Shown piece by piece: positions 24,888-30,154 of a DNA stretch of 39,837 nucleotides. The translations under genes were made by a program, and so were the position numbers. The first letter of the stretch is position 1. Each line of letters begins with the position of its first letter. This DNA comes from Endomicrobiia bacterium (lineage in GTDB: Bacteria; Elusimicrobiota; Endomicrobiia; DTEH01), in NCBI GenBank assembly GCA_025059805.1, contig JANXDG010000068.1:1-39837 (forward strand), given 5' to 3'. The notes beneath the pieces are model-generated. The model had not been told where the DNA came from. It worked only from the letters and a program-made list of their open reading frames with translations, and did no database searches.

Positions 24888-24959
24888 GCCGGCATAACTC
24901 AGTGGTAGAGTACCCGCCTTGTAAGCGGGAAGTCGAGGGTTCAAATCCCTCTGCCGGCT
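24888..24959 (+). tRNA. tRNA-Thr (TGT)
   Basis: A complete 72-nt cloverleaf: 7-bp acceptor GCCGGCA with TGCCGGC, anticodon stem CCCGC with GCGGG and loop CTTGTAA, giving TGT at 24920-24922. The T arm GAGGG-TTCAAAT-CCCTC is perfect. The discriminator is T. CCA is not encoded. A run of six or seven T follows at once, and the next reading frame starts 11 bases after the 3' end. Confidence 0.97.
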
Positions 24960-24970
24960 TTTTTATTTCT

Positions 24971-26371
24971 GTGAAAAAAATTATACAGTCATTCATAGAA
25001 TTTATATCTTTTGTGATGGTAATTGTTGTCATATGGCTACTAATAAGATATCCTGCATACACCATATACATATATCCTTGTTTTGGTGCCTGCATCATTG
25101 TGTTTCACCTATGTGAAGACCTTTTCTTAGAATTTGTTGTTTTATTTGTCAGCATATTTGTTGGTTTGATAGTTATTATATTGCTTCCGAAAGAAATAAA
25201 TAATTTTTACAGGCTGGTTTTACTGGGTGAGATAATAATGGTGTTATTATGGTATTCGCTATTATTTAAATTAGATGCATACTTACAGAAACAACAAGGG
25301 TTATGGACAGAAAAAAAGGAATTTCTTGAGAAAGAAATAGGTAGGCTTACTCATGAAATTAATCTGTTGAAAGATGCAACGTTTAATAATATGATTAAAA
25401 TACAAAATTATAAGTTTATAGAAGAGGTGATAAATAAACTTGTTAGTTTTCAAGCATGCTCTCAGCTTTGTGAATATGTTTCAGAGGTATTGATTAGATT
25501 ATTACCACGATGTAAGAGCCGTCTCTATATTACAGGTGATTCTTCAGACAATTTCATTGAGAAATTGTTAGCGTATTATGATAAGAATGTTATATATATC
25601 CCGGAAGTCTCTACGTATGCGAAAAATTATGATCCAATGGTTCAATTAGTTGTAAGTTCTTTAGAACAGGGTAATGTTAAATCTGTTGTAAGTGTCAGGT
25701 TAGATAATCCAAAAAATGGTAATATTGAAGGACATTTGGTTGTTTACTCTACTGAATACTTAATATCTGAAGATGATTTGAGACTTATTTTGTTATTATC
25801 GTCATACATAAACATTGCAATTACTAATCTTAAAACATTTGAGTACGTAAAACAATTAGCTATATCTGATACATTAACAGGTCTATTTGTTCAAAGATAT
25901 TTCAAAGAATTATTAACAGAACAAATAAGGATTGCAAGATATTATGGTAAATCGTTAGTTTTAGCCATTTTTGATATTGATAATTTTAAACAAATAAATG
26001 ATACTTATGGACACAATATAGGTGACGAAGTTTTGGTAAGATTTGCTAACATTTTGAGAGCGAGGTTAAGAGAAACCGATATTATTGCACGATACGGTGG
26101 TGACGAATTTGCTACTGTTTTGTTGAATGTAGATTTGGACGAAGCAAGAAATATATGCGAAGAGATTAGAAGTACAGTTTTAAAGGAAACATTGGTTTTG
26201 TCAAAACCGACTGATTTTTCTAGCCGTGCACGAGTAAAGTTTGAAATATCATGTGGTATTAGTTTATATTCTACTAGATTTTCCACTACGGAAGAATTTA
26301 TAGATTATGTAGATAAGCTGTTGTATAAAGCTAAACAAACAGGTAAGAATAGAGTAATAGCAGAAGTATGA
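24971..26371 (+). CDS. Membrane diguanylate cyclase with GGDEF domain and intact I-site
   Basis: I choose GTG 24971, the first start after tRNA-Thr; the frame is open upstream but runs through the tRNA. The 466-residue product has about four membrane helices (residues 8-95), a coiled coil (about 100-140), a GAF-like region and a C-terminal GGDEF domain. GGDEF is residues 376-380. RETD at 367-370 fits the RxxD inhibitory site five residues upstream. The DIDNFKQINDTYGH metal/nucleotide motif is intact, so it probably makes c-di-GMP under product inhibition. The stop overlaps the next gene by 4 bp. No Shine-Dalgarno is visible. Confidence 0.86.
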   Translation: MKKIIQSFIEFISFVMVIVVIWLLIRYPAYTIYIYPCFGACIIVFHLCEDLFLEFVVLFVSIFVGLIVIILLPKEINNFYRLVLLGEIIMVLLWYSLLFKLDAYLQKQQGLWTEKKEFLEKEIGRLTHEINLLKDATFNNMIKIQNYKFIEEVINKLVSFQACSQLCEYVSEVLIRLLPRCKSRLYITGDSSDNFIEKLLAYYDKNVIYIPEVSTYAKNYDPMVQLVVSSLEQGNVKSVVSVRLDNPKNGNIEGHLVVYSTEYLISEDDLRLILLLSSYINIAITNLKTFEYVKQLAISDTLTGLFVQRYFKELLTEQIRIARYYGKSLVLAIFDIDNFKQINDTYGHNIGDEVLVRFANILRARLRETDIIARYGGDEFATVLLNVDLDEARNICEEIRSTVLKETLVLSKPTDFSSRARVKFEISCGISLYSTRFSTTEEFIDYVDKLLYKAKQTGKNRVIAEV

Positions 26372-27618
26372 TACCAGCAATTTTGAACTTAGTGTTAATA
26401 AATATTTTACCATTTTTGGTTTACGTAAATATTGATATTGCACGACTTAAAAATATTGAACGTAATAGAGAGATAATTTATTTCTTACTCTTAATTATAC
26501 CGGTATTTCTTCTTTTTTATTTAGTAAAAATTAAATTACTGATTTTAGTGACAATATTTGTAACAATAGCGTGGATTGCTGTAGCAGAATATTACTTTGT
26601 TCAAATAGATAAAGTAACGATTGCAGTATCAAAATCTGTAGATTCTTTAACTGAAGAAGTAAAAATACTTCAACAATTACATGGTGAAGTTTCTTTGCAA
26701 AATAATAACGTTTCAACTGAACTAATCAAATATACGAACATCTTTAGTCTTGTACAGGAGATAAATCAAAATATTGGTATTCATAAAATCGGATATGAAT
26801 TCTACATAAAAGTCTCATCTTACTTTCCAGATAAAATTAAATACATTGGTTTATTAGTTGTTAAGAAAAAAGATATTGTTGAAGTTATACCATTTTCACC
26901 TACTGGCATATTTGATGAAGCTAAGATTAGGTCTTTATGGTTATCAGAAAAAAAGAATACCGAAGTAACGAACAAAATTCTGGAGTATAAAATTTATGAA
27001 AACCAATATCAGTATATATTAATAATATTTCATGAATTTACTCGTGAGGAAATATCAAATTTTGAATTTTTTATTGAAGAGACTAAAATAGGTTTTGTAC
27101 GTAGTATACTTTTTAAAGAAGTAGATGAACTATCACGCACTGATGGATTGACAGGGTTATATTTAAGAAGATACTTTTTAGCACGACTAAATGAAGAAAT
27201 TGTTCGTGCAGTAAGATATAGCCAACGGTTTTCTCTTATTATGTTTGATATTGACTTTTTTAAGAAAATAAATGATACATATGGCCATATCGTTGGTGAT
27301 TTCGTGTTAAAAGAAGTTGCTGGTATAATCAAAACTACTGTCGGAGATCAAGGTTTGTGTTCACGCTGGGGCGGGGAAGAATTTCTTGTTTTTGTCCCTT
27401 ATCAAAGTAAAGAACAGGTCTATACACTTGCAGAAAATATTAGAAAATCAATTGAGCAATGTGAAATGAACTACGAAGGACATAACATAAAAATTACAAT
27501 AAGTGGTGGTATAAGTTCATATCCAGATGATGCTAAAGAAATTGAGAAATTAATTGAGCTTGCAGATCAAAGACTTTATAAGTCGAAACAAGCGGGAAGA
27601 AATTTAGTCACTATATGA
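26368..27618 (+). CDS. Membrane diguanylate cyclase with GGEEF motif, no I-site
   Basis: The 416-residue product has about three membrane helices in residues 4-75, a short coiled coil (about 85-120), a GAF-like middle domain (about 130-240) and a GGDEF domain. The active motif is GGEEF at residues 335-339, and FDIDFFKKINDTYGH is intact. Five residues before GGEEF the sequence is GDQG, so RxxD is absent. The ATG lies inside the stop of the previous cyclase, and the stop overlaps the next gene (ATGA). The two cyclases share an architecture but differ in feedback site and sensor region. Confidence 0.87.
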   Translation: MIPAILNLVLINILPFLVYVNIDIARLKNIERNREIIYFLLLIIPVFLLFYLVKIKLLILVTIFVTIAWIAVAEYYFVQIDKVTIAVSKSVDSLTEEVKILQQLHGEVSLQNNNVSTELIKYTNIFSLVQEINQNIGIHKIGYEFYIKVSSYFPDKIKYIGLLVVKKKDIVEVIPFSPTGIFDEAKIRSLWLSEKKNTEVTNKILEYKIYENQYQYILIIFHEFTREEISNFEFFIEETKIGFVRSILFKEVDELSRTDGLTGLYLRRYFLARLNEEIVRAVRYSQRFSLIMFDIDFFKKINDTYGHIVGDFVLKEVAGIIKTTVGDQGLCSRWGGEEFLVFVPYQSKEQVYTLAENIRKSIEQCEMNYEGHNIKITISGGISSYPDDAKEIEKLIELADQRLYKSKQAGRNLVTI

Positions 27619-28652
27619 GAAAATTCTTGCTGCGAGTGATAACACAATATTTATATTTGGTTATTTTAATGCTTACAATGAAGAATATTTGTTATTCAGC
27701 AGGTTTTATAGAATCTTATAAAGGTATTTATGGTAAAGAAATAGTTATATCAGCGACACAGCTTAGTTTAGGTAAAAATTTGACATTATGCGATAGCTTG
27801 AATATTTTAGCGAGTAATCCTGCGGGTGTAGTTGGTGATAGACACGCTAACTTGTTAGTGGAAACTAATTTTGGTTCTTTACTTAACAAAGTTTCTATTT
27901 CAGAGGATAGGATTGGTTATTACGAAGAAACTTATAGTTTCACTATGGGTTCGTTAGCATTAGCTTACTATTTTAACAGACAACCGTTCGTATTTGGTTT
28001 AGTATATCTGCCAGAATATGAGAACAACTATAACGACGGTAACATTAATACAACTGGAAGTATGTATAGCATAAATCTTCCTATACTATTTAGACTAAAA
28101 CAAGTTAATTTAGGATTAGCAGTTAAAACTTTGATGGGTAATTTAAAATCGCACAATAGCAAAATTGAACTGTCAGGCAATTCTATAATTGTTGGTACCA
28201 AGATAGATATTGGTGATGTTTCTTTAGCATGTGCGTATCATCCTGAGGCTGAATTAAAAATCACTGATGAGAGAGGAACTGTTAAGTTACCTAATAAAAT
28301 TTTGTTTGGTGTTAGATATGAATTTTCGGACGAAAGCAAGTTATATAGTGAAATAAAATTTTATAAATTTGATAGTAGAACTGACTTTTTGTTTTCGTTA
28401 GGTGCACAGATGAAAATATATGACAATGTGCAACTGTTACTTGGATATTCATATGAACGAAATTATTATTTGGAGACATCCGTACTGCCATCGTTGACAT
28501 GCGGAATCATTACAGAATTTTTCAATAAACTACAATTTAGTGTTGCTACAGCCTATGGTAAAGAAAACTATGCTGATCCTATTAATTCCAAACGAATATA
28601 TAGTATGGACTATTTGTTGATATCAATGAGTATTACATATAAGGTCTTTTGA
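27615..28652 (+). CDS. Predicted outer-membrane beta-barrel protein (PorV/FadL-like style)
   Basis: The 345-residue protein starts with a signal-like hydrophobic stretch (about residues 10-30, possible cleavage after CYSA). The segment SLNILASNPAGVVGD resembles the NPAG motif near the start of barrel proteins of the PorV/UPF0164/FadL type. Later strands alternate polar and hydrophobic residues and end near TYKVF, with an aromatic at the last position as in barrels. Specific function is not recognisable. It is coupled by ATGA to the second cyclase and by TGATG to the next gene. Confidence 0.68.
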   Translation: MRKFLLRVITQYLYLVILMLTMKNICYSAGFIESYKGIYGKEIVISATQLSLGKNLTLCDSLNILASNPAGVVGDRHANLLVETNFGSLLNKVSISEDRIGYYEETYSFTMGSLALAYYFNRQPFVFGLVYLPEYENNYNDGNINTTGSMYSINLPILFRLKQVNLGLAVKTLMGNLKSHNSKIELSGNSIIVGTKIDIGDVSLACAYHPEAELKITDERGTVKLPNKILFGVRYEFSDESKLYSEIKFYKFDSRTDFLFSLGAQMKIYDNVQLLLGYSYERNYYLETSVLPSLTCGIITEFFNKLQFSVATAYGKENYADPINSKRIYSMDYLLISMSITYKVF

Positions 28653-29575
28653 TGAGAAACACCCTACTTCTTATTCTCCTATCCGTTCTCTTCTTAACAC
28701 TATTTTCTTTTTCCGAAAGTCAAAAAATTGTTTATCTCTTACCTGAAGAATATGAGCTAACGAAGGAAGACCTTACGATTGTTTTTCTTGATGTTGGACA
28801 GGGTGATTGTAGTTTGATAGTTACTCCAAATAAAAAAACATTGTTGATAGACGCAGGTGGTTCTCCATATTGGATGGGAGATGACCGTTGGGATCCAGGT
28901 GAGGAAATTGTTGTACCATATCTTTTAGAAGACAAGATAAAAACACTTAATATGGTTGTTGTTTCACACCCGCACGGAGACCATTTCGGTGGGATGTTTG
29001 CAGTTTTAAATTCAATGAAAGTGATAAATTTTATAGACGGTGGATACCCATTTGGCGACCCTGACTATGAAGACCTGTTACATCTTGTTGAAAATAAAAA
29101 AATACCTTATACTCAGTTCAAAGAAGGAGATGAACTTGAAGTTGACAAAGATGTGAATCTACTTGTATTTTATCCACCGAAAGAAGCATTTCCGTTTGAA
29201 GGAGCAAATAATTCGTCATTAGTTTTTAAAATTATGTATATAAATTTTTCTTTACTTTTTACTGGTGATATTGAGATTGAAGCTGAACATTATATTTCTT
29301 CAAGATATAAAAAGCAGTTAAGAAGTTTAATATTAAAAGTGCCACATCATGGTTCAAGAACTTCGTCATCACCAGGTTTTATAAAATATGTTTCGCCAGA
29401 GGTTGCAGTGATACAATGTGGAAGAAAAAATATGTTTGGCCATCCTCATAGTGAAGTTGTTACACGTTATGAGAAAAGAAAGATTGAAATTTACAGGACA
29501 GATTTGGATGGTACCATAAAAATTCTGACTGACGGATACAAATATACAATTATTACTTCTAACGATAACGACTAA
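28652..29575 (+). CDS. Secreted ComEC-type metallo-beta-lactamase-fold hydrolase
   Basis: The 307-residue protein begins with a signal peptide (about residues 1-23). It has FLDVGQGDCSLIVTP and LIDAGG, then the zinc motif H106-P-H108-G-D110-H111, TGDIE, VPHHGSRTSSSP and an AVIQCG-KN-GHPH end. These are the patterns of the ComEC/Rec2 metallo-hydrolase domain as a free-standing secreted protein. Substrate is unknown; nuclease or phosphodiesterase activity is possible for the family. The start ATG shares its first base with the stop of the preceding gene (TGATG). Confidence 0.86.
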   Translation: MRNTLLLILLSVLFLTLFSFSESQKIVYLLPEEYELTKEDLTIVFLDVGQGDCSLIVTPNKKTLLIDAGGSPYWMGDDRWDPGEEIVVPYLLEDKIKTLNMVVVSHPHGDHFGGMFAVLNSMKVINFIDGGYPFGDPDYEDLLHLVENKKIPYTQFKEGDELEVDKDVNLLVFYPPKEAFPFEGANNSSLVFKIMYINFSLLFTGDIEIEAEHYISSRYKKQLRSLILKVPHHGSRTSSSPGFIKYVSPEVAVIQCGRKNMFGHPHSEVVTRYEKRKIEIYRTDLDGTIKILTDGYKYTIITSNDND

Positions 29576-29663: not shown

Positions 29664-29737
29664 GCGCCTGTAGCTCAACTGGACAGAGCAACGGCCTTCT
29701 AAGCCGTGGGCTGTGGGTTCAACTCCCGCCAGGCGCG
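29664..29737 (+). tRNA. tRNA-Arg (TCT)
   Basis: A complete cloverleaf: acceptor GCGCCTG with CAGGCGC, anticodon stem ACGGC with GCCGT, loop CTTCTAA, so TCT reads AGA. T arm GTGGG-TTCAACT-CCCGC has one wobble. The discriminator is G and CCA is not encoded. First of six tRNAs. Confidence 0.97.
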
Positions 29738-29750
29738 TTTCCTACAGTGA

Positions 29751-29823
29751 GGGCCCGTAGCTCAGTAGGTAGAGCACCGGCCTTTTAAGCCGGGTGTCGA
29801 GAGTTCGAATCTCTCCGGGCTCA
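29751..29823 (+). tRNA. tRNA-Lys (TTT)
   Basis: A complete cloverleaf: acceptor GGGCCCG with CGGGCTC (one G-T pair), anticodon stem CCGGC with GCCGG, loop CTTTTAA, anticodon TTT. T arm GAGAG-TTCGAAT-CTCTC. The discriminator is A and CCA is not encoded. Confidence 0.97.
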
Positions 29824-29830
29824 TATTTTT

Positions 29831-29905
29831 GGTGGTTGTAGCTCAACTGGATAGAGCACCTGGCTGTGGCCCAGGTTGTTGCGGGTTCGAGTCCCGTCAA
29901 CCACC
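29831..29905 (+). tRNA. tRNA-His (GTG)
   Basis: A complete cloverleaf: anticodon stem CCTGG with CCAGG, loop CTGTGGC, anticodon GTG. An encoded extra G (29831) faces the C discriminator, the normal G-1:C73 identity pair of tRNA-His. The T arm is GCGGG-TTCGAGT-CCCGT. CCA is not encoded. Confidence 0.97.
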
Positions 29906-29919
29906 CATGTTGTTAGGTT

Positions 29920-29991
29920 GGGCGGTTAGCTCAGCGGGAGAGCGCCCGGTTTACACCCGGAAGGTCAGAGGTTCAAATCCTCTACCGCCCA
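29920..29991 (+). tRNA. tRNA-Val (TAC)
   Basis: A complete cloverleaf: acceptor GGGCGGT with ACCGCCC, loop TTTACAC, anticodon TAC. The anticodon stem CCCGG with CCGGA has a C-A mismatch at its outer pair (27-43). T arm AGAGG-TTCAAAT-CCTCT. The discriminator is A and CCA is not encoded. Confidence 0.96.
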
Positions 29992-29999
29992 TTTTATAC

Positions 30000-30075
30000 G
30001 GGCTCGTGGTGTAGCTTGGTTTAACACACTGGCCTGTCAAGCCAGAGATCGCGGGTTCAAATCCCGTCGGGCCCG
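30000..30075 (+). tRNA. tRNA-Asp (GTC)
   Basis: A complete cloverleaf: acceptor GGGCTCG with CGGGCCC (one T-G pair), anticodon stem CTGGC with GCCAG, loop CTGTCAA, anticodon GTC. T arm GCGGG-TTCAAAT-CCCGT. The discriminator is G, as expected for Asp, and CCA is not encoded. Confidence 0.97.
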
Positions 30076-30082
30076 TATTTTT

Positions 30083-30154
<72 letters not shown>

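Follow-up and report, generated by a model that had tools for sequence, protein, structure and literature searches.

The window analysed here, a whole stretch of 39,837 nucleotides from an Endomicrobiia bacterium, carries four overlapping plus-strand genes at 24971-29575. The first, DGC1 (24971..26371), begins with GTG and encodes three N-terminal hydrophobic stretches and a C-terminal GGDEF domain; the second, DGC2 (26368..27618), encodes N-terminal hydrophobic stretches and a GGEEF signature. The third (27615..28652) encodes a predicted FadL/TodX-like outer-membrane barrel of 345 aa, and the fourth (28652..29575, ATG start) a stand-alone ComEC-type hydrolase of the metallo-beta-lactamase fold with 307 aa, both with signal-type N-termini. 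Successive genes overlap by 4, 4 and 1 bases, and the arrangement reported in an earlier note on this DNA was thereby confirmed. Literature searches brought up no published description of this gene set among the papers they listed.

The unit is flanked upstream by obgE and a plus-strand tRNA-Thr(TGT) (24888..24959), which lies directly 5' of DGC1 across an 11-base gap, and is closed downstream by a plus-strand cluster of six tRNAs, Arg-Lys-His-Val-Asp-Gly (29664..30154; tRNAs were called with ARAGORN). Genes after this cluster resemble, by eye, rpsR, rplI, dnaB and alr. The source genome, G000, belongs with G001, G002, G003 and G004 to a family of five genomes, f1, in which the order obgE, tRNA-Thr, DGC is shared with G002 and G003, and a tRNA-Lys 3' of the hydrolase gene is found in G002, G003 and G004 as well. 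No Shine-Dalgarno-like sequence is visible in the gap between tRNA-Thr and DGC1, and the GTG start of DGC1 aligns by eye with the ATG starts of its relatives. Scans for promoters and terminators were uninformative, with 39 promoter-like sites where 27.5 were expected and 2 terminator-like sites where 2.3 were.

Cyclases, barrel and hydrolase

Both cyclases match the GGDEF model PF00990 (E 2e-40 and 1e-44) and keep the FDxD/IND/GD core residues, a statement on the catalytic core that covers the window cyclases only, the core pattern having matched nothing in many relatives. DGC1 combines its GGDEF with the RxxD product-inhibition motif in the form RETD, which is present in 9/10 DGC1 proteins examined (the variant, in G001, is REVD), and DGC2 has GGEEF without an RxxD motif. 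By domain and motifs both are predicted to be diguanylate cyclases, as the earlier note had proposed.

That note had also described the third protein as PorV/FadL-like, and of this only the second half finds support. PorV identity was rejected with PF19572 and NF033709 unmatched; no Pfam or NCBIfam model is reached above cut-off by the window barrel, and it has no Pfam match to Toluene_X. A barrel profile built from four relatives does match TodX of the FadL family (6z37) over the last 94 columns (E 7e-4), and the protein is therefore regarded as FadL/TodX-like rather than PorV; a relative in G007 matches Toluene_X with E 8e-6, below cut-off. The single-sequence AlphaFold model of the barrel is unusable (pLDDT 31.5). 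At E 1e-6, members of the barrel family occur in 12 of 294 phylum genomes. Outside f1, HHH_3-type proteins are encoded within the same few kb as the barrel in eight of nine genomes (G007, G010, G098, G100, G112, G162, G204 and G245), the calls in G098, G112 and G245 resting on HHH-protein profiles built here rather than on the Pfam model; G106, the one remaining genome, has its barrels starting at the edge of a contig.

The claim of a secreted ComEC-type metallo-hydrolase is borne out by profile, which places the protein in the ComEC C-terminal family, and by its N-terminal hydrophobic stretch of signal type. Residues 41-288 match positions 440-663 of TIGR00361 at 156.7 bits, below the whole-protein cut-off, and the family profile matches the ComEC structures 9ic4 (3e-72) and 30bt, with E below 1e-69. 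The ligand set is complete (H106/H108/D110/H111, N187, D206, H232/H233 and H264). A transmembrane Competence domain was not found in the hydrolase, only Lactamase_B-type domains, and single-sequence AlphaFold gave a pLDDT of 35.2. The suggestion that the enzyme is displayed or released fares less well: no type IX sorting tail is detected in Pfam or NCBIfam, surface display by way of such a tail was rejected, and a periplasmic rather than surface-displayed location is therefore the likelier prediction.

In the window hydrolase and most of its stand-alone relatives motif II is HxHxDH rather than HxDxDH, with Asp at the second ligand in 7/71 stand-alone relatives. Characterised ComEC nucleases have Asp at this position and Pce-type enzymes are reported to have His (PMC8579336), and the substrate of the hydrolase could differ from that of the ComEC nucleases. 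It is conceivable, if quite improbable, that the protein is a Pce-type envelope phosphodiesterase with phosphorylated polymers or lipids as substrates, and that the barrel imports hydrophobic compounds in the manner of FadL/TodX; beyond the His reported for Pce-type enzymes, Pce itself (1wra) is the next solved relative of the family profile, at E 2e-8, and the barrel profile reaches TodX. The ComEC structures nevertheless match far better (3e-72 against 2e-8), the Asn of motif III is as in ComEC (PMC8579336), and PLD-nuclease and HHH genes are among the neighbours.

Distribution among relatives

All four genes stand together in two of the five f1 genomes, G000 and G004, the latter of a different genus, with 30-61% identity to the window over the four genes and with different outer neighbours. 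G002 has DGC1, DGC2 and the hydrolase gene after obgE and tRNA-Thr, with the barrel absent; in G003 a single contig bears obgE, tRNA-Thr, DGC1 and DGC2 and, at a distance of about 60 kb, barrel, PLD, PorV, hydrolase and tRNA-Lys. G001 has the cyclase pair; it gave no barrel match, and the hydrolase is represented there by a distant paralog only. The scatter of members in relatives that the earlier note had named as telling against its proposal is thus partial, with four genes together in 2/5 f1 genomes and three in one more.

The pairing of DGC1 with DGC2 is present in all five f1 genomes, and it recurs without barrel and hydrolase in five genomes of other families (G037, G024, G013, G057 and G021), where an ABC ATPase, called by its similarity to a window ABC ATPase, comes after the pair. 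In G037 there is one more small gene between the pair and the ATPase. The tandem membrane cyclases constitute a first module, whose pairing is conserved throughout the class. GGDEF genes are found in 3/48 neighbourhoods of stand-alone hydrolases, those of the window, G002 and G004 only (47 loci of at least 5.5 kb plus the window, with a reach of <2 to about 11 kb on each side), and a functional link between cyclases and hydrolase may therefore be accidental. An ancient four-gene system was rejected on this rarity and on the occurrence of the cyclase pair by itself in other families. The cyclase-hydrolase link is genuine but confined to one family.

Base overlaps were likewise rejected as evidence of a system, because overlap is found in 14 of the 43 pairs of adjacent plus-strand genes in the window, by 4 bases in seven of those 14 (the hydrolase pair included, when counted from TTG 28649 and not from ATG 28652). 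Overlap this common fits with a reading to which we give appreciable weight while thinking it on the doubtful side, namely that two unrelated gene pairs came to lie side by side in a compact genome, the cyclases acting globally and the barrel and hydrolase a unit of their own, with no c-di-GMP control. The separated halves in G003, each with its own tRNA neighbour, and the ABC ATPase that follows the cyclase pair elsewhere point in the same direction, but the joined order is kept in G002 and, despite a change of genus and of outer neighbours, in G004. Conservation in this second genus is better evidence than the overlaps for a unit that did not arise by chance, and the unit is a lineage-specific, family-restricted joining of two modules, the second being the FadL-like barrel together with the secreted ComEC-type hydrolase.

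ComEC nuclease domains and DNA-handling neighbours

The two ComEC proteins encoded by G000 measure 748 aa and 1132 aa; the longer one carries an SNase domain, and after its gene come those of a PD-(D/E)XK nuclease and of a stand-alone hydrolase. When metal-ligand positions were read in every collected protein matching the hydrolase profile, 19/21 proteins of at least 600 aa, from 14 genomes, were without metal ligands. These 19 comprise 12 ComEC1-type and 7 ComEC2-type proteins, and the motif-II Asp is gone in all of them; the Competence domain is present in the four of the 19 that were scanned. Both ComEC controls, from Smithella (L011) and from G151 of another family, are intact. The Smithella protein was the single relative to come from a scan of genome contigs. 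Among stand-alone proteins of 230-599 aa, motif II is kept in 69/71. The ComEC C-terminal domain is a Mn-dependent nuclease (PMC8579336, PMC12455585), and substitution of one ligand abolishes activity in the enzyme studied (PMC12455585); the residue changed in 19/19 appears to correspond to that ligand, the numbering being our own reading. Three genomes, G048 and G011 of the class and G057, have a degenerate ComEC although the thresholds applied revealed no stand-alone relative in them (for G057, in one search), so that supply of the nuclease in trans would not be universal.

Relatives of the second module lie within a wider gene set. Among 294 phylum genomes, 11 encode, at E 1e-20, a secreted PLD-type protein (PLDc_2, with a weak NucT match and a sub-cut-off type IX sorting tail). 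PorV comes after PLD, either directly or beyond one small gene, in G002, G003, G004, G007, G100, G106 and G108, and the order PLD, PorV, hydrolase is seen in G003, G007, G100, G106 and G108 (5/11 PLD genomes); in G162 and G204 the PLD position is taken by a FlgD_ig-tailed hydrolase, followed by PorV and two hydrolases. The contigs of G004 and G010 end at the PLD region. A PLD gene was not found in G000, where contig C23 holds an HHH pair but leaves only about 0.1 kb of sequence upstream of it. The HHHa protein of G000 has HHH repeats that match comEA models, with a weak PorV_fam match before the repeats. By eye, the HHH genes in f1 are followed by a pilin-like gene and, in G002 and G003, also by a prepilin-peptidase-like one. 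Genes for adenosine deaminase or purine phosphorylase (PNP) are nearby and Pfam-confirmed in five loci: both in L143, the deaminase in L147 and L063, and the phosphorylase in L146 and L099, with L063 and L099 surrounding hydrolase paralogs rather than the PLD cluster.

The DNA branch of the role suggested in the earlier note is supported by this context, in which barrel relatives adjoin ComEA-like HHH_3 proteins and hydrolase relatives adjoin the secreted PLD nuclease and the PorV barrel. The second module is drawn from a set with secreted PLD nuclease, PorV barrels and ComEA-like DNA-binding barrels. What such a set does with DNA can be read in more than one way. Purely nutritional scavenging, in which the breakdown of external DNA to nucleotides and nucleosides serves purine salvage and long DNA is not imported, seems to us somewhat unlikely; it would account for the deaminase or phosphorylase near related clusters, for the secreted PLD nuclease, for the multiple copies of the hydrolase, and for the degenerate ComEC nuclease domains. 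The ComEC channels, however, are kept, as the Competence domains of the four proteins scanned indicate, and ComEA-like proteins adjoin the pilin and prepilin-peptidase-like genes in G002 and G003.

Proposed function and comparison with known systems

A candidate route from c-di-GMP to DNA is offered by type IV pili. On contig C13 of G000 two adjacent type IV pilus ATPases lie beside a PilT-like gene, and each has two copies of the MshEN motif with 10/11 consensus positions per copy; a third MshEN ATPase of this genome has poor motifs (6/11 and 5/11), and the best score among 45 window proteins is 7/11. The template was scored with a spacing of 24 residues, taken to be that of MshE. The motif and the control of type IV pili by c-di-GMP were drawn from a single source, in which the motif as printed gives 25 positions though 24 is stated (PMC11731258). 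The pilus is a plausible c-di-GMP effector, nothing more.

A type-IX-like secretion route is likely to be present in G000. This genome encodes a divergent, 1712-aa SprA-like protein that scores 81.8 bits where the cut-off is 200, and near it are an M6 protease whose type IX tail exceeds its cut-off and a PorV-family protein below cut-off. SprA matches, all of them below cut-off, were obtained in 13/13 genomes and in 0/14 controls, in open frames that span 344-1836 aa and for the most part measure about 1,700-1,800 aa. Nothing in the window hydrolase points to its use of this route.

The best explanation of the unit, which we hold at a little short of even confidence, is that c-di-GMP coordinates how external DNA is captured and cut, a ComEC-type nuclease acting in trans. 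On surfaces or in biofilms the cyclases would raise c-di-GMP, which would favour extension of the type IV pilus via MshEN-type assembly ATPases; HHH and barrel proteins would bind external DNA and pass it through the outer membrane; and the secreted hydrolase, probably periplasmic, would cut the incoming DNA. The hydrolase may thereby supply in trans the nuclease step apparently lost by the two ComEC proteins of G000, and the cut products could feed nucleoside salvage, single-strand import or both. A more far-reaching reading, which we consider unlikely as a whole, is that ComEC shed its nuclease, that duplicated secreted copies came to serve in a type-IX-like external DNA machine made up of PLD nuclease, PorV carriers and ComEA-like barrels, and that in one family this machine came under a dedicated c-di-GMP cyclase pair. 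If the proposed function is true, the strand-cutting step of natural DNA uptake would be movable from the ComEC channel to free secreted enzymes, the catalytically dead look of the ComEC proteins examined here would be accounted for, and there would be a concrete site at which to test c-di-GMP steering of DNA acquisition in little-studied bacteria.

Parallels with described systems are each partial. The likeness of the window barrel to FadL/TodX channels consists in a distant TodX profile match over the C-terminal part, whereas the window barrel is shorter and its family has nuclease and HHH genes as neighbours rather than degradation genes. With type IX secretion these genomes share PorV-family, sorting-tail and divergent SprA-like proteins, but the window barrel is not PorV, the window hydrolase is untailed and the SprA matches fall far below cut-off. 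As in the MshEN-based control of type IV pili by c-di-GMP (PMC11731258), G000 has ATPases with two MshEN copies. The hydrolase shares with the ComEC C-terminal nuclease domain of B. subtilis and Moorella (PMC8579336, PMC12455585) its profile family, the motif III Asn and a full ligand set; it differs in being a separate secreted protein without a Competence channel and in having His where that domain has Asp at the second motif-II ligand. Streptococcus pneumoniae, as described in three sources, likewise combines a degenerate ComEC nuclease domain with a separate nuclease, EndA (PMC8579336, PMC5031224, PMC12455585). Unlike EndA, the separate enzyme here belongs to the ComEC domain's own family, is predicted to be secreted and is often present in several copies, and, in a further departure from the pneumococcal arrangement as given there, it adjoins cyclase genes in three genomes.

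The second ComEC and stand-alone hydrolases

Contig C69 of the window's own genome carries a second ComEC of 1132 amino acids (ComEC2; locus L064, 9773-13171), in which an SNase (staphylococcal-nuclease) domain is combined with a degenerate hydrolase domain that lacks metal ligands, and this gene is followed by a PD-(D/E)XK nuclease and then by a stand-alone hydrolase, that is, a ComEC-type metallo-hydrolase without the Competence channel. The gene order ComEC2, stand-alone hydrolase was found again in G002, G003 and G004, relatives in the same family, and in G007 and G106 from outside it. On contig C11 of the own genome, a CLP1_P (polynucleotide-kinase-like) protein (L063, 9341-10603) is flanked by adenosine deaminase and another stand-alone hydrolase, and is adjoined by an mnmA-like gene.

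HHH_3 proteins and the cyclase pair

Two large HHH_3 proteins, of 538 and 783 amino acids, are encoded on contig C23 of the own genome (L213, 7750-11772), which ends just upstream of them; the first has a weak PorV match ahead of its HHH repeats, and a pilin-like gene adjoins the pair. As for the tandem GGDEF cyclase genes, an ABC-transporter ATPase gene follows them in five genomes of other families (loci L086, L087, L088, L089 and L090).

PorP/SprF and SprA-like matches

One open frame of G002 (L149, 6983-8323) begins with a match to the 23S rRNA intervening-sequence protein, the remainder matching PorP/SprF, and this double match may be either an annotation artefact or a real fusion. SprA-like matches below the cut-off occur in all 13 genomes searched, none reaching it. 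On contig C26 of the own genome, one region (L220, 4056-14027) encodes a divergent SprA-like protein of 1712 amino acids close to an M6 protease that bears a type IX sorting tail and to a member of the PorV family.
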